Shown piece after piece: positions 435-7,550 of a DNA stretch of 64,000 nt. This DNA is from Chloroflexota bacterium (GTDB lineage Bacteria; Chloroflexota; UBA11872): assembly GCA_022824495.1 (NCBI GenBank), contig JAJDZU010000023.1, forward strand, positions 1 through 64,000, written 5' to 3'. Within the stretch, counting starts at the first letter, position 1. Each line of letters starts with the position of its first letter. A program made the position numbers and the translations under genes. The notes beneath the pieces were generated by a model that saw only the letters and a program-made list of their open reading frames with translations, did no database searches and was not told the DNA's origin.

Positions 435-965
435 TCACGATTCGGCCTGGAGGGTGGTGGCGATTTCGGTGGCGATGGTGTGGATGGATTTGTGGTTGGC
501 GTTGATGTGGAGGTGGGCTTGCTGGTAGGCGGCGAGGCGTTCGGCGCGGAGGGCGCGGAGGCGGCCGACGGGGTCGTCGCCGAGCATGGGGCGGGGTTCG
601 TCGGCGATGGCGGGGCCCAAGCGCTCGGCGGCTTCGTCGGGGTCGACATCCAGCCAGACGACGAGACCGCGGCGGAGCAGGGCGGCGCGGGTGAGGGGGT
701 TGACGAAGGCGCCGCCGCCGAGGGCGACGACCTGGCGGGGGCGGGCGGCGAGTTCGAGTACGGCGGATTGTTCGAAGCCGCGGAAGACGTCCTCGCCCTT
801 GTGCGCGAAAAGCCAGGGGATGGTGCGGCCGGTGCGGCGTTCGACTTCGGTGTCGGTGTCCTGGGGTTTCCAGCCGAGGCGGCGGGCAAGGACGGCGGCG
901 ACGCTGGATTTGCCGGCGCCGCTGATGCCGACGAGGAAGACGCGGTCGACGTTGGGCGGGGTCAT
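435..965 (-). CDS. aroK: Shikimate kinase
   Basis: The 176-residue protein phosphorylates shikimate with ATP to shikimate 3-phosphate, the fifth step of the chorismate pathway, in the cytosol. The P-loop GISGAGKSS is at about residues 13-21. The DTDTE segment (about 37-41) corresponds to the shikimate/Mg-binding DxD region, GGGAF (about 83-87) is the conserved shikimate-contact loop, and DEPRPML lies in the lid region. Length is normal for AroK. The ATG overlaps the aroC stop in an ATGA junction at 962-965, so it is the last gene of the minus-strand aro operon and probably translationally coupled to aroC. Repeats follow its stop. Confidence 0.95.
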   Translation of the reverse strand: MTPPNVDRVFLVGISGAGKSSVAAVLARRLGWKPQDTDTEVERRTGRTIPWLFAHKGEDVFRGFEQSAVLELAARPRQVVALGGGAFVNPLTRAALLRRGLVVWLDVDPDEAAERLGPAIADEPRPMLGDDPVGRLRALRAERLAAYQQAHLHINANHKSIHTIATEIATTLQAES

Positions 966-2146
966 GCGGATTCAGTCTGGATGGCGTAGGTCTGGCGGAA
1001 GCGTTGGAGGTTGTCGCGGGTTTCGGGGAGGCTGTCGCCGCCGAATTTGTCGAGCACGGCGTCGGCGAGGACGAGGGCGGTCATGGCTTCGCCGATGACG
1101 CCGGCGGCAGGGACGACGCAGACGTCGGAACGTTCGAAGTGGGCGGTGGTGGGCTCCAGGGTGGCGACGTCGACGGTGCGCAGGGGGCGGCGCATGGTGG
1201 AGATGGGCTTGAGGGCGCCGCGGACGACGATGGGCTGGCCGTTGGTCATGCCGCCCTCGAAGCCGCCGGCGCGGTTGGAGAGGCGGGCCCAGCCGCGGTC
1301 GGGGTCGATGGCGATTTCGTCGTGGACGTCGTGGCCGCGGGCGGCGGCGTTGGCGAAGGCGGGGCCGATTTCGGCGCCCTTGACGGCGTTGATGCTGACG
1401 ATGGCCTGGGTGAGGCGAGCATCCAGCTTGCGGTCCCACTGGACGTGGCTGCCGAGGCCGACGGGAGCGCCCCAGGCGACGACTTCGAATACGCCACCGA
1501 GGGTGGAGCCTTCAGTTCGAGCGGCGTCGATCTCGGCCATCATGGCGTCGGCGCGATCAGGGGTGACGGCGCGGACGGGGGAGGCTTCGACGTCGTCCCA
1601 GGGCCAGTGTTCGGGGCGGGCGTGGTCGAGGCCGGGTTCGTCGACGACGGCGCCGATGCGGGCGGTGCGGCTGCGGATGCGGATGCCGAGTTCGGCGAGG
1701 AATTTGCGGGCGACGGCGCCGACGGCGACGCGGGCGGTGGTTTCGCGGGCGCTGGAGCGTTCGAGGATGTTGCGGAGGTCGCCGGTGCCGTACTTGATCA
1801 TGCCGGCGAGGTCGGCGTGGCCGGGGCGGGGCTTGGTGACGGGGGGGATGTCGTTGGAGGGGGCCTCGATGGCCATTTTTTCGACCCAGTTGGCCCAGTC
1901 GCGGTTCTCGATGAGGAGGGTGATGGGGCTGCCGAGGGTTTCACCAAGGCGGATGCCGCTGCGGATGACGGCCTGGTCGCGCTCGATTTTCATGCGGCCG
2001 CCGCGGCCGTAACCGCCCTGGCGGCGGGAGAGGTCGGGGTTGATGTCCTGGACGCCCAAGGGCACGCCGAGGGGGAGGCCCTCGACGATGACGGTAAGGC
2101 CTGGGCCGTGGGATTCGCCGGCGGTCAGGTAGCGGAGGTTGGCCAT
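962..2146 (-). CDS. aroC: Chorismate synthase
   Basis: It converts EPSP to chorismate using reduced FMN, the last step of the common aromatic pathway. The 394-residue protein opens MANLRYLTAGESHGPGLTVI, the family N-terminus with the GESHG signature. Further signatures are KPRPGHADL (about residues 104-112), SSARETTARVAVGAVARK, and FEGGMTNGQPI toward the C-terminus. An upstream in-frame ATG at 2227 exists, but the ATG at 2146 gives the canonical start. No clear Shine-Dalgarno sequence precedes it. The 387-base gap to aroE is filled with palindromic repeats. Confidence 0.96.
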   Translation of the reverse strand: MANLRYLTAGESHGPGLTVIVEGLPLGVPLGVQDINPDLSRRQGGYGRGGRMKIERDQAVIRSGIRLGETLGSPITLLIENRDWANWVEKMAIEAPSNDIPPVTKPRPGHADLAGMIKYGTGDLRNILERSSARETTARVAVGAVARKFLAELGIRIRSRTARIGAVVDEPGLDHARPEHWPWDDVEASPVRAVTPDRADAMMAEIDAARTEGSTLGGVFEVVAWGAPVGLGSHVQWDRKLDARLTQAIVSINAVKGAEIGPAFANAAARGHDVHDEIAIDPDRGWARLSNRAGGFEGGMTNGQPIVVRGALKPISTMRRPLRTVDVATLEPTTAHFERSDVCVVPAAGVIGEAMTALVLADAVLDKFGGDSLPETRDNLQRFRQTYAIQTESA

Positions 2147-2207
2147 GGGGTGAGGGTGGTTCCTACGAGTGGTCGGCGGGCAGCGGATTGGGTGGTTTGT
2201 TGCGTGG

Positions 2208-2282
2208 GGTGCGCGGAAGACCCTCACCGATTTCCGGCGAAGACGTCGGAATCTGCCTCTCCCCTTGGAGAGGGGAAGAGCG
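2208..2282. repeat. Palindromic intergenic repeat, copy 5
   Basis: The left flank GGTGCGCGGAAGACCCTCAC is shared with copy 2. After an unrelated insert it reaches CCTCTCC (2256-2262), loop CCTT, and GGAGAGG (2267-2273), then GGAAGAG. Confidence 0.75.
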
Positions 2283-2533: not shown

Positions 2534-3406
2534 TCAAGGCGAGTCGCTGCCTTCGAGCGCGGTGCGGGCGGCTGTGAGCATGGTACGCGCCGGGGCGGGG
2601 CGGCCGGTCCATTGTTGGAGGCTGGCGGCGCCCTGCATGACGAGCATTTCGAGGCCGCCGAGGGTGGGTGCGCCGACCTGGCGGGCGGCGGCGAGGAGGG
2701 GGGTGAGGGCGGGGCGGTAGACGATGTCGTAGACGAAGAGGTTGGGGTGGAGCCAGCCGGGGGGCACGGGGCTGTCGGCGGGGGCGGGGCCGCCGGCCAT
2801 GCCGACGCTGGTGGTGTTGACGAGAAGTTGGGCGGCGGCGAGGAGTTGGGGGAGGCGGGTGTCGGTTAGGGCGCAGGCGCCGATGGGGGTGTCGTCGGGC
2901 GGTTGGAGGTCTTGTACGAGTTGGTGGGCGCGGGATTCGGTGCGGTTGGCGATGAGGATGCGGCGGGCGCCGGTGTCGAGGAGGGCAATGACGGCGGCTC
3001 GGGCGGCGCCGCCGGCGCCGAGGATAACGACGGATGCGCCGGCGAGGTCGAAGCCGCCGAACCGGCGGAGGGCTTCGCTGAATCCGTAGGGGTCGGTGTT
3101 GTCGCCGAGGAGGCGGGGGCCGTCGCGGATGACGGTGTTGACGGCGCCGGTGCGCTGGGCGGCGGGGGTGAGGCGGTCCATGGCGCGGAACGCGGCGAGC
3201 TTGTGGGGGATGGTGACGTTGAGGCCGGCGAAGCGGCCGATGCGGACGTCTTCGAAGCGGTCGGTTTCGCTGCCGGGGGGCGTGGGGAGGGCGGTGTAGG
3301 CGGCGTCGAGGCCGAGTTCAGCGAGGGCGGCCTGGTGCATGACGGGCGAGAGGGTGTGGCCGAGGGGCCAGCCGATGACGGCGTAGGTGTCGCTCATTGA
3401 GACCAT
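2534..3406 (-). CDS. aroE: Shikimate dehydrogenase (NADP)
   Basis: It reduces 3-dehydroshikimate to shikimate with NADPH. The 290-residue protein shows the substrate motif GWPLGHTLSPVMHQAAL near the N-terminus, NVTIPHK with the catalytic lysine (about residue 68), and NTDPYGF with the catalytic aspartate. The Rossmann loop is GAGGAARA (about 133-140), followed by NRT, which favours NADP. The C-terminal GLEMLVMQGAASLQQWTG is the family signature. Two in-frame ATGs lie 9 bases apart (3406 and 3397). MSDTYAVIGWPLGH from 3397 is equally plausible, since neither has a strong ribosome binding site. Repeat-filled gaps flank it inside the aro operon. Confidence 0.95.
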   Translation of the reverse strand: MVSMSDTYAVIGWPLGHTLSPVMHQAALAELGLDAAYTALPTPPGSETDRFEDVRIGRFAGLNVTIPHKLAAFRAMDRLTPAAQRTGAVNTVIRDGPRLLGDNTDPYGFSEALRRFGGFDLAGASVVILGAGGAARAAVIALLDTGARRILIANRTESRAHQLVQDLQPPDDTPIGACALTDTRLPQLLAAAQLLVNTTSVGMAGGPAPADSPVPPGWLHPNLFVYDIVYRPALTPLLAAARQVGAPTLGGLEMLVMQGAASLQQWTGRPAPARTMLTAARTALEGSDSP

Positions 3407-3521: not shown

Positions 3522-4822
<1,301 letters not shown>

Positions 4823-4826
<4 letters not shown>

Positions 4827-5854
4827 GCGCCGACCGGAGAGGCGAGCGGACGCCCGAGAGCGGCGGCCATGGGTTCCAGCTGGGCCATGAGCCCGCTGAA
4901 GTGGTTGAAGCTGAGGCTTTGCTGGCCGTCGATTAGGGCGGTCTCGGGCTCGGGATGGACCTCGACGATGACGCCGTCGGCGCCGGCCGCGACGGAGGCC
5001 AGGGTCATGGAATGGACCATGTACCAGTGCCCGGTGCCCTGCGAGGGGTCCACGACGATGGGCAGGTGGGTGCGGCGGCGCAGGAGCGGGATGGCGTTGA
5101 GGTCGAGGGTGAAGCGCGAGGAGGTTTCGAAGGTGCGGATGCCGCGCTCGCAGAGCATGACGTTGGGGTTGCCGGCGGCCAGGATGTATTCGGCGCACAT
5201 GAGCCACTCGTCGATGGTGTTGCCCATGCCGCGCTTGAGCAGGACGGGTTTCTCGCAGCCGCCGACTTCGCAGAGCAGCGGGTAGTTCTGGGCGTTGCGG
5301 GTGCCGATCTGCAGGACATCGGCGTAGTCGACGACGAACTCGACCTGGCGGGGGTCGAGGACCTCGGTGATGACGGGCAGGCCGGTGGCTTCGCGGGCTT
5401 CGGCCAGGAGTTGCAGGCCCGGGACGCCCATGCCCTGGAAGCTGTAGGGGGAGCTGCGCGGCTTGTAGGCGCCGCCGCGCAGCACCTGGGCGCCGGCGGA
5501 GGCGACGTGCCGGGCGGTGGCGGCCATCTGCTCGGGGCTCTCGACGGTGCAGGGGCCGGCCATGACGGTGACCGAGCCGTTGCCGATCTCGACGCCGCCG
5601 ACCTGGATGACGGAGCGCTCGCGGCTGTCGGTGCGGGCGGCGAGCTTGAAGGGCTCGCTGATGGGGATGGTGGCCTCGACGTGGGGCATGCGCTCGAGCT
5701 GCTGGAGCAGTTCGGGCGGGCGGGTGCCGATGACGGCGATGACGGTCTTGTGCTCGCCGGGCAGGACGCGGGTTTCCAGGCCCTCGGCCTGGACGCGGGC
5801 TTCGACCGCGTCCAGGGCCGCCTGGCCGGCGCTGTTCTTCATCACGATGATCAT
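4823..5854 (-). CDS. aroF: 3-deoxy-7-phosphoheptulonate synthase (type I-beta, with N-terminal regulatory domain)
   Basis: It condenses PEP with erythrose 4-phosphate, the committed step of aromatic biosynthesis. Of the 343 residues, the first 70 or so form a ferredoxin-like domain ([10 protein letters not shown]... to [12 protein letters not shown]) of the kind that binds Phe/Tyr in Thermotoga-type enzymes. The TIM barrel follows with [48 protein letters not shown], and a late [10 protein letters not shown] and [22 protein letters not shown] at 5863-5867 lies 8 bases before the ATG. It heads the aro operon behind a leader with a Tyr/Phe-rich ORF and a terminator, so both allosteric and attenuation control are likely. 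Confidence 0.96.
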
Positions 5855-5899: not shown

Positions 5900-5930
5900 A
5901 AAGAAAAAAGCAGAGGCGTGGGCCTCTGCT
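5900..5930 (-). terminator. Intrinsic terminator in the aro operon leader (attenuator)
   Basis: Read on the minus strand, AGCAGAGGC, loop CCAC and GCCTCTGCT form a perfect 9-bp stem that ends in TTTTTTCTTTCT. No minus-strand gene lies upstream for it to terminate: the neighbour at 6165 runs the other way. It sits 46 bases before the aroF ATG, downstream of a Tyr/Phe-rich leader ORF, which is the arrangement of a transcription attenuator. Confidence 0.85.
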
Positions 5931-5984
5931 GCCGGCGTCTGCGGGTCGTTGGTTTACATAAGCGTACGACCCGGCTGCGCCGGC
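5931..5984 (-). promoter_or_regulatory. Two-part hairpin abutting the aro leader terminator
   Basis: On the minus strand GCCGGCG (5984-5978) can pair with CGCCGGC (5937-5931). Inside that, CGGGTCGT (5973-5966) can pair with ACGACCCG (5949-5942). The loop contains the stop codon of the leader ORF. The 3' arm ends exactly where the terminator stem begins. A ribosome finishing the leader ORF would open this hairpin, while one stalled on the Tyr/Phe codons would leave most of it intact. I do not see a mutually exclusive antiterminator, so the switching mechanism is unresolved. Confidence 0.5.
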
Positions 5985-6034
5985 GCTGGAAACGCAAAAT
6001 AGGTGCCGCAAGCGGGGGCGTGACCGTGGGTCAT
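5954..6034 (-). CDS. Putative aro leader peptide (26 aa)
   Basis: This short ORF runs from ATG to TAA upstream of aroF. It encodes a 26-residue peptide with the run Thr-Tyr-Phe-Ala-Phe at positions 11-15, written with TAT and TTT codons, which are uncommon in this GC-rich DNA. A TTG at 6058 could extend it by 8 residues. No good Shine-Dalgarno is present (only GAG five bases before the ATG). Aromatic codons just ahead of a terminator in front of a DAHP synthase gene fit a ribosome-mediated attenuator sensing charged tRNA-Tyr/tRNA-Phe. Family knowledge supports the idea, but expression is unproven. Confidence 0.55.
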   Translation of the reverse strand: MTHGHAPACGTYFAFPAPAQPGRTLM

Positions 6035-6063: not shown

Positions 6064-6092
6064 AGTGTGCGCGAGGTCGGGGCGGGCGTCAA
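6064..6092 (-). promoter_or_regulatory. Candidate promoter of the aro operon (weak)
   Basis: On the minus strand TTGACG (6092-6087) is followed after 17 bases by CACACT (6069-6064). The -35 box is good and the -10 box poor (three of six). Transcription would start near 6057, about 23 bases before the leader ATG, a spacing that suits attenuation. Confidence 0.35.
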
Positions 6093-6164
6093 TAGGATAC
6101 GGTTGAGTAGAGTTGTGAAGATTGGGCGAGCGGGGCGCGGTTCGGGTTGCGATCGGTGACGGGT

Positions 6165-7550
6165 ATGGCTGGCAAGGGCGGCGCGCCGCCGCGGCCGGTT
6201 TCCGAGGCCGCGCTGGTGCAGTTGTGGCTGGAGGCCGCGTCGCGGGTCGGTCCCATGCGCGATTCGCTGGGGCGTTCGATCGAGGTGGTGTATCCCGGCC
6301 GCCGCACGGGGCTGGCGGGACCGGACCTGCAGGACGCGATCATCAGTATTGACGGCGGTCCGGTACGGCGGGTCGACGTGGAAGTCCACCTGCACGAGGC
6401 GTCCTGGGAGCGGCACGGACACGACGGGGACGCGCGCTACGCCGGTGACCTGCTGCACCTGGTGTGGACGGCGGCGCGCGGCGGATCCGGGCGTCCGCCC
6501 TACATCCTGGCGCCGCGGGCGCTGGCCGGCGGGCGGGCGCGAGGAGGACGGCGAACGAAGACGGCAGGGTGGCCGTGTTGGGACGACGAGGGAGGCCCGG
6601 CGGAGACAGCCGAGCTGCGAGGGGCGATTCGAGCGGAGGGCACCAGGCAGCACGCGGAGCGGGCGGCGGTGCTGGAGAGCGACATCGAGGCGCTGGGCGC
6701 GGACCAGGCCCTGTACCGGGCGGTGATGCGGGCGCTGGGGTACAGCGCCAATACGCGGCAGTTCGAGGCGGTGGCCGAGGCGGCGCCGATCGAGCTGCTG
6801 GGCGCGCTGGCCGGGTCGTCGTTGGGTGAGCGGCGGGTGCGCGTGGAGGCGGAGTTGCTGGGGGCGGCGGGGTTGCTGCCGAGCCAGCGCGGGCAAGACG
6901 CTGAACATCCGCATGTGGTGATGCTCGAGGAAGCCTGGGCGGGCACGGCGCCGCGGGCGGCGCCGGCGGTGGAGGACTGGACGCTGGCGGCGGTGCGACC
7001 GCACAACCGGCCGGCGCGGCGGCTGGCGGGGGCGGCCAGGCTGCTGAGCACGGCGCCGTTGGCGCGGCGTTCGCTGGCGGAGCGAGTGGCGGGGCAGGTG
7101 CTGGCCGCGAACGACGGCGGGCGCGGACGGGACCTGGTCGGGTGGTTCGAGGTGCGGGTTGGGCCGGAGGACTTCTGGGCGCGGCACCTGGACGTGGGGC
7201 GGCCGGCGGCGCGATTGCTGCCGGCGCTGATCGGGCGCGGGCGAAGCCTGGAGGTGCTGGTGAACGCGGTGCTGCCGTTTACGGCGGCCCTGGGGGGCTG
7301 GACGGGCCGGACCGGTTTGGTGGAGGCGGCCGGCGAGGTGCTGGCCGGGCTGGGAGCGGTGGGCTGGAACCGGCACACGCGCTACATGGCCGACACGCTG
7401 CGGCTGGAGCGGCGGGGGCTGGGATCGGCCCTGGCGCAGCAGGGGCTGCTGCGGATCTACCGCCGCTGGTGCCGGGCGAAGCAGTGCGGCGAGTGCCCCG
7501 CGGCGAACGCGGCCGCGGCGATTCCAGCGGGGGCGGGCGTCGGCGAATAG
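6165..7550 (+). CDS. DUF2851 family protein, function unknown
   Basis: The 461-residue protein matches my memory of the DUF2851 family, known mostly from Bacteroidetes and Chloroflexi. The N-terminal half has GPDLQDAIISIDGG followed by VDVEVHLHEASWERHGHDGD and YAGDLLHLVW. The GPD...D-x-E-x-H layout resembles a PD-(D/E)XK nuclease-like core. The C-terminus has a cysteine cluster CRAKQCGECP that could bind metal. ATG at 6165 (MAGKGG) is chosen; in-frame GTG at 6156 and TTG at 6147 are alternatives. It diverges from the aro operon and stands alone. A nuclease-like role is inference. Confidence 0.75.
   Translation: MAGKGGAPPRPVSEAALVQLWLEAASRVGPMRDSLGRSIEVVYPGRRTGLAGPDLQDAIISIDGGPVRRVDVEVHLHEASWERHGHDGDARYAGDLLHLVWTAARGGSGRPPYILAPRALAGGRARGGRRTKTAGWPCWDDEGGPAETAELRGAIRAEGTRQHAERAAVLESDIEALGADQALYRAVMRALGYSANTRQFEAVAEAAPIELLGALAGSSLGERRVRVEAELLGAAGLLPSQRGQDAEHPHVVMLEEAWAGTAPRAAPAVEDWTLAAVRPHNRPARRLAGAARLLSTAPLARRSLAERVAGQVLAANDGGRGRDLVGWFEVRVGPEDFWARHLDVGRPAARLLPALIGRGRSLEVLVNAVLPFTAALGGWTGRTGLVEAAGEVLAGLGAVGWNRHTRYMADTLRLERRGLGSALAQQGLLRIYRRWCRAKQCGECPAANAAAAIPAGAGVGE

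Follow-up and report, generated by a model that had tools for sequence, protein, structure and literature searches.

The aro operon of a Chloroflexota bacterium is preceded by a leader that very probably acts as a ribosome-mediated transcription attenuator. The leader lies in the 64,000-nt stretch of DNA analysed here (the window) and, by all computed evidence, it belongs to a Chloroflexota-wide family that is absent from Rfam and whose architecture departs from that of the textbook attenuators. A short open reading frame (ORF) containing Tyr and Phe codons is followed by a helix with the arms X and Y, and Y directly abuts an intrinsic terminator. A Tyr/Phe leader-peptide attenuator before this operon had been proposed in an initial annotation; it is still the best reading, and related genomes keep the ORF, its codons and the terminator together.

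The aro operon and its leader

NCBIfam searches gave the operon order aroF-aroA-aroE-aroC-aroK:

4823..5854, minus strand: aroF, DAHP synthase (NCBIfam NF006421, TIGR01361)
3522..4799 (start approximate), minus strand: aroA, 3-phosphoshikimate 1-carboxyvinyltransferase (NCBIfam)
2534..3406, minus strand: aroE, shikimate dehydrogenase (NCBIfam)
962..2227, minus strand: aroC, chorismate synthase (NCBIfam; the family match starts at ORF codon 31-32)
435..965, minus strand: aroK, shikimate kinase (best NCBIfam matches, below their own curated cut-offs)

Two 89-nt repeats that are 89% identical (274-362 and 2298-2386) and six related 29-nt copies are located between or beside the genes of the operon. 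The leader region is on the minus strand between the aroF ATG (5854) and a divergent DUF2851 gene (6147-7550, plus strand), which was identified with Pfam. The minus-strand frames opposite the latter gene, namely 6500-7378, to which Pfam gives no family, and the aroA frame, which is open to 7376, look spurious. With a divergent neighbour and frames of this kind, the original statement that no minus-strand gene lies upstream appears to hold. The leader contains the following features:

6064..6092, minus strand: putative promoter TTGACG-N17-CACACT (sequence pattern; predicted transcription start about 6057)
5954..6034, minus strand: leader ORF, 26 sense codons plus TAA (ATG at 6034, TAA at 5956-5954; peptide MTHGHAPACGTYFAFPAPAQPGRTLM)
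5990..6001, minus strand: sensor codons TAT TTT GCG TTT (Tyr Phe Ala Phe), 17 to 8 nt upstream of X
5978..5984, minus strand: X, 5' arm of the conserved outer helix, GCCGGCG (helix scan and covariation)
5966..5972, minus strand: 5' arm of an inner hairpin, GGGTCGT (sequence and fold)
5943..5949, minus strand: 3' arm of the inner hairpin, ACGACCC (sequence and fold)
5931..5937, minus strand: Y, 3' arm of the conserved outer helix, CGCCGGC (gap of 0 to the terminator; covariation)
5904..5930, minus strand: intrinsic terminator, 9-bp stem (5930-5909) and T6 (5909-5904) (sequence, terminator scan and covariation)

The 26-codon ORF and its Tyr-Phe-Ala-Phe, which had been described as encoded by TAT/TTT codons, can be read directly at 6034-5954, with TAT at 6001-5999, TTT at 5998-5996, then GCG, and TTT at 5992-5990. 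The hairpin said to hold the stop codon of the ORF in its loop exists as the 7-bp inner hairpin GGGTCGT/ACGACCC, but the conserved helix that abuts the terminator is the outer one, X:Y, which had not been named. Likewise, the terminator (AGCAGAGGC-CCAC-GCCTCTGCT, 5930-5909) has the 9 bp and the T6 tract ascribed to it, but the distance from the T tract to the aroF ATG is 49 bases, not 46.

The promoter-like pattern is present in all 15 of the same-family leaders examined; a sigma-70 consensus scan did not pick up the copy at 6092-6064. The 206-nt leader folds at -70.5 kcal/mol, compared with -56.85 for dinucleotide shuffles (z = -3.40; 0 of 200 as good). A terminator scan of 12 kb found 4 terminators versus 3.6 expected, which is chance level taken alone; the terminator of the window is significant because it is conserved, not because of the scan statistics. 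No T-box or other Rfam leader family was found in the whole window at the gathering cut-offs (0 matches). Searches of the window leader at E ≤ 5 returned a single irrelevant match, and those of 15 related loci returned tRNA genes and below-gathering matches only.

Conservation within the genus and the class

A search for AroF in 41 genomes of the class yielded a match in 38 (none in G001, G003 and G012), and the model R2, which was built from 69 leaders, finds the leader in exactly these 38 genomes. By their coordinates, 37 of the 38 leaders share a contig with the aroF match and lie directly upstream of it. In G011, aroF begins at a contig edge and the leader is near the end of another contig. 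Additional DAHP synthase genes are present in G030 (two copies), G038 and G040, none of them with a terminator upstream in the terminator scan.

In the nine genus leaders tabulated, Tyr-Phe-Ala-Phe is invariant at the amino-acid level with TTT/TTC wobble, although the rows were anchored on GCGTTTCC, so that only Tyr and the first Phe were free to vary. The ORF ends in TAA in eight of them and in TAG in one. L010, the most diverged, has another N-terminal peptide and yet keeps YFAFPAPARPGR..M*, and a Phe codon has changed to Tyr in a leader of the sister genus (L013). The terminator stem of L006 (from the genus genome G007) contains two mismatches, and this terminator was undetected by our script because of the imperfect stem. 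In L005, L006, L007 and L009, an in-frame upstream ATG occurs about 8 nt past a -10-like box, and the start of the leader ORF is possibly leaderless in these four. The window and L002, L003, L008 and L010 are without this ATG and carry the one equivalent to 6034.

A leader family across Chloroflexota

Scanning upstream of aroF homologues revealed an order common to many families: a run of Tyr/Phe/Trp codons, X, Y and the terminator, with the stop codon in or beside X or between X and Y. The covariance model R1 is based on the MAFFT alignment A3 of 16 leaders, none of which is from the family of the window. In this plain MAFFT alignment, 97.2% of the cells pair and 12 of the 18 pairs have changes on both sides. 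At E ≤ 1, R1 matches a single place in the genome of the window, namely 5900-6006 on the minus strand (E = 2.8e-9). Among 400 sampled Chloroflexota genomes, 148 are matched by R1 at E ≤ 0.01 and 141 by R2 at E ≤ 1e-5. A DAHP synthase match is present in 362 of the same 400, whereas the leader is found in 148; the motif is thus not universal in the phylum and is carried by under half of the sampled genomes. Three Chloroflexota loci without the leader (L126, L131 and L132) have, by eye, an apparent chorismate mutase (aroH-like) gene directly upstream of aroF.

In the alignment of 69 leaders, all 18 X:Y and terminator pairs show double changes, 98.7% of the cells pair, and the covariation score is 0.494, compared with 0.169 when shuffled (0 of 500) and at most 0.145 when slid, although this alignment leans towards the model because it was fitted to it. 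An alignment of related leaders had been set beforehand as the check on the proposal, and it came out in its favour, with codons invariant in 9 of 9 genus leaders and covariation of X:Y and the terminator.

We also ran R2 at E ≤ 0.01 on 47 named genomes from many phyla. Fifteen gave a match, and only three of these were strong: Ktedonobacter racemifer (1.4e-16), a Chloroflexi MAG (2.5e-15) and a Thermomicrobiales MAG (8.1e-8), all three of which we take to be Chloroflexota. The remaining 12 were weak (E = 6.8e-5 to 0.009), and at the seven weak places that were read, in five genomes, no DAHP synthase was recognised among the ORFs shown.

Across families, GGCATGA or GGTGTGA is frequent as X, and GTCGTGCC or CGCACC as Y (A3 columns 25-33, A5 columns 23-32), and these recurrent letters fall in differing reading frames relative to the leader ORF, which hints at a possible sequence constraint beyond pairing. 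The terminator stem (A)GCAGAGG...CCTCTGC(T) is likewise kept across many families (window 5930-5909 and many A5 leaders), though other stems would serve. In one family, four of the five loci scanned have a tRNA-Ser(GCT)/tRNA-Arg(GCG) pair, in one orientation or the other, upstream of the leader of aroF:

L158, 233-429: tRNA-Ser(GCT)/tRNA-Arg(GCG) pair
L188, 851-1046: the same pair
L159, 383-558: the same pair
L201, 1222-1409: the same pair

Sensor codons match the downstream gene

Codons were counted in the 24 nt upstream of X, in the most aromatic open frame, and downstream genes were checked by NCBIfam on pieces, Pfam and locus-to-locus comparison. Among 77 leaders of the DAHP-synthase class, Tyr occurs in 74, Phe in 68 and Trp in 31; 56 of these loci hold a DAHP synthase, 20 more are short upstream regions of known aroF matches, and one (L302) is a contig end without its gene, so that the gene is found or known for 76 of the 77. 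The codons of the window are indeed Tyr and Phe, as first described, but the wider family senses Trp as well. The tyrS leaders tabulated, six of the seven from one family, contain Tyr in 7/7 and neither Phe (0/7) nor Trp (0/7), whereas the pheS leaders contain Phe in 4/4, Tyr in 0/4 and Trp in 2/4. Single leaders before a fused chorismate mutase-prephenate dehydrogenase gene and before aroH plus a DAHP synthase contained Tyr only. The difference in Phe between the DAHP synthase and tyrS leaders has a Fisher p of 2.5e-6, computed on lineages that are not independent.

Three leaders need separate mention. The tyrS leader (L291) of K. racemifer, a species that also has a leader of the DAHP-synthase class, showed no helix in the range searched and is outside the count; by eye, it reads KSYYYYRSALW, and X is preceded by four Tyr codons but by no Phe. 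In L233, the frame scored differs from that preferred by eye, with one Tyr codon before X either way. An R1 match in L229 (153-257, plus strand) precedes asd, the gene for aspartate-semialdehyde dehydrogenase, and has an Ile/Thr-rich ATG frame, although the count scored it in an aromatic frame. From this single, weak example, the device may serve other amino acids as well.

Sensor codons make up 315 of 556 codons (56.7%) within the 24 nt before X, a figure favoured by the choice of frame, compared with 45 of 904 (5.0%) at positions further 5' and 17 of 447 (3.8%) downstream. Because the sensor codons follow the downstream gene, these data support ribosome-mediated attenuation, and they provide predictions of amino-acid-specific regulation for uncultured lineages.

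Leader geometry and the search for an antiterminator

X:Y consists of 6-17 contiguous pairs (median, 10), and in 90 of 91 leaders Y is separated from the terminator by 0-4 nt (gaps of 0-6 searched). When gaps were scanned to 40, a strong helix (score ≥ 20) was present at a gap of 0-4 in 30 of 31 representatives and in 3.5% of shuffles; this test is partly circular because the representatives were hand-picked from a scan that already viewed small gaps. At p ≤ 0.05, an abutting helix is present in 29 of the 31. E. coli trp (p = 0.023) and his (p = 0.010) likewise have a helix next to the terminator, and abutment alone is therefore no proof of antitermination.

No trp/phe/his-type mutually exclusive antiterminator was found in the 31 leaders, which bears out the earlier remark that no clean one is visible as far as gap-free helices are concerned. 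Upstream partners of the terminator 5' arm (mean p = 0.66) and 3' arm (mean p = 0.58) were no better than those in shuffles, and upstream partners of X or Y were on average not above shuffles. A 5'-arm partner at p ≤ 0.05 was detected in 2 of the 31 leaders versus 4 of 5 E. coli attenuators; thr, leu, his and phe reached this level in an equivalent test, and trp was missed (p = 0.233). As the test sees gap-free helices only, a bulged antiterminator could escape it, as that of E. coli trp did. A candidate upstream partner of Y in L003 and L008 (CGGCGTCT/AGACGCCG) was dropped because it is broken in L001 and L002.

Folding in the presence of a ribosome

Masked folding considered only the RNA ahead of the ribosome, with the leading edge set 13 nt from the start of the A-site codon, and scored 39 of 41 leaders; misplacement of X left L003 and L008 without codons. 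A ribosome standing on the first aromatic codon gave a best X:Y pair probability of at least 0.99 in 39/39 leaders. One standing on the stop codon gave 0.00 in 38/39, and the exception (L018) had been read in a wrong frame. When the ribosome was placed on the last sensor codon, X:Y reached 0.8 in 17 of the 39 leaders and stood at 0.05 in the window. In this model, the predicted RNA structure thus shifts with the position of the ribosome, from an X:Y probability of at least 0.99 to 0.00. Because X:Y forms when the ribosome occupies the first aromatic codon and is lost when it occupies the stop codon, it would be the structure of the starved state. The terminator probability was at least 0.75 in every masked state. 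No base is common to X:Y and the terminator, and at equilibrium both of them form, so that any blocking of the terminator has to be postulated as steric.

Proposed mechanism and alternatives

In attenuators of this kind, amino-acid starvation turns the operon on. Since starvation should switch the aro operon on, X:Y would have to hinder the terminator by a non-competitive route. We infer the transcription start, the direction of control and the blocking of the terminator by X:Y together with a stalled ribosome, as follows. When Tyr or Phe aminoacyl-tRNA is scarce, the ribosome would halt on TAT/TTT just 5' of X, leaving X free to pair with Y while the stop codon and the spacer are looped out. 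X:Y would then set the stalled ribosome at the foot of the terminator, which would be blocked, and RNA polymerase would enter aroF. When aromatic amino acids are ample, the ribosome would reach the stop codon between X and Y and prevent X:Y, and the terminator would form and stop transcription short of aroF. With no ribosome, X:Y may form, and the terminator would be unobstructed. An X:Y that acts as a splint would explain why the codons lie so near X, why Y all but touches the terminator and why the loop is free, and would predict termination both in plenty and without translation. We regard this attenuator as the best full explanation and as a reasonably probable one.

A classical mechanism of the trp/phe type, in which the stalled ribosome opens X:Y as a 1:2 pause/protector hairpin and an antiterminator with interruptions or bulges then joins Y or the loop to the terminator 5' arm, appears unlikely. 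The parts follow one another much as in E. coli trp (codons, first hairpin arm, loop with the stop codon, second arm and terminator), in which the gap-free test also missed the antiterminator, and in short-X leaders, including that of the window, X:Y is opened once the ribosome has reached the last codon. However, the 5'-arm partners in the 31 leaders are no better than shuffles in a test that four of the five E. coli attenuators pass, and X:Y persists in 17 of 39 leaders even when the ribosome occupies the last sensor codon, so that stalling would not free Y.

X:Y might also be a steric antiterminator by itself, hindering closure of the lower stem inside RNA polymerase, with a default that is on without translation. 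The strict abutment (90 of 91 leaders; strong helix in 30 of 31) and the covariation of X:Y would fit this distinctly improbable alternative. It leaves the short distance between the sensor codons and X less explained, and the abutting helices of E. coli his and trp are compatible with termination, that of his belonging to the terminating form.

We consider it very unlikely that X:Y stacks on the terminator and assists it, with the stalled ribosome weakening termination by preventing X:Y. The two helices abut end to end with little or no overlap, and a ribosome at the last sensor codon masks X in many short-X leaders, but X is free in 39/39 with the ribosome at the first sensor codon, and the terminator of the window, with its 9-bp stem and T6, looks strong unaided. 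It is extremely improbable that the leader is just the conserved terminator of a transcript from upstream, or an unannotated gene for a short protein, with incidental codons, even with the terminator scan alone at chance level, given that the codons match the downstream gene in several families, the upstream neighbour is divergent, and X:Y covaries while the peptides change.

For the attenuator in which X:Y and a stalled ribosome block the terminator, a tentative and rather doubtful extension is a phylum-wide class that needs no base-pair competition, with X:Y as a splint that is retuned by codon exchange before aroF, tyrS, pheS, the chorismate mutase-prephenate dehydrogenase gene and perhaps asd with Thr/Ile. 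If the splint mechanism is true, sensing by the ribosome would be separated from hairpin competition, and the steric relation between ribosome and terminator would be directly testable.

Comparison with known systems

The E. coli leaders pheL, trpL, hisL, thrL and leuL resemble those of Chloroflexota in having an ORF with codons for the end product and a terminator before the structural gene, but an alternative partner for the terminator 5' arm is present in four of these five, in contrast to 2 of the 31 Chloroflexota leaders. E. coli pyrBI, which senses UTP via pausing of RNA polymerase and has no X:Y helix, is a precedent for the proposed blocking of a terminator by a ribosome. In PMC5021804, a ribosome close to RNA polymerase is described as preventing the pyrBI terminator hairpin.

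The ilvB-II motif of Corynebacterium, as outlined in an excerpt of PMC10272879, has a uORF over most of a hairpin (P1) followed by a terminator (P2), in which P2a can pair with the P1 loop as a putative antiterminator. The order of uORF, hairpin and terminator is the same in Chloroflexota, but a pairing like that of P2a was not found in the Chloroflexota leaders.

Two further systems lie before DAHP synthase genes. The C. glutamicum aroR-aroF leader (Neshat et al. 2014, as summarised in passages of PMC11802643 and PMC4046766) encodes a Phe-Tyr-Phe leader peptide, and ribosome stalling raises transcription when Phe is short. Likened by these descriptions only, it shares the aromatic leader peptide before DAHP synthase with the Chloroflexota leader, but aroR is from Actinobacteria. 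The proposed uORFC-13-1 motif (excerpts of PMC8632094), known from 24 representatives in Acholeplasma and unknown environmental sequences, comprises a uORF with one or more Phe codons and a base-paired substructure directly 5' of an intrinsic terminator, before aroF and possibly with a promoter inside; its mechanism was left open. Compared by description only, it is similar to the Chloroflexota leader in uORF, helix and terminator.

According to a statement made in 2010, in a passage of PMC2965389, leader peptides were unknown outside Proteobacteria and Actinobacteria before the Firmicutes case of the same paper. We found no account of a leader-peptide attenuator in Chloroflexota in the titles and abstract openings of open-licence PMC papers, a set that most subscription papers fall outside. 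Within that scope, the novelty first suggested for Chloroflexota stands, but leaders of DAHP synthase genes as such are not new. Because they have already been reported in Corynebacterium and proposed in Acholeplasma, it is only the Chloroflexota family and its architecture that look new.
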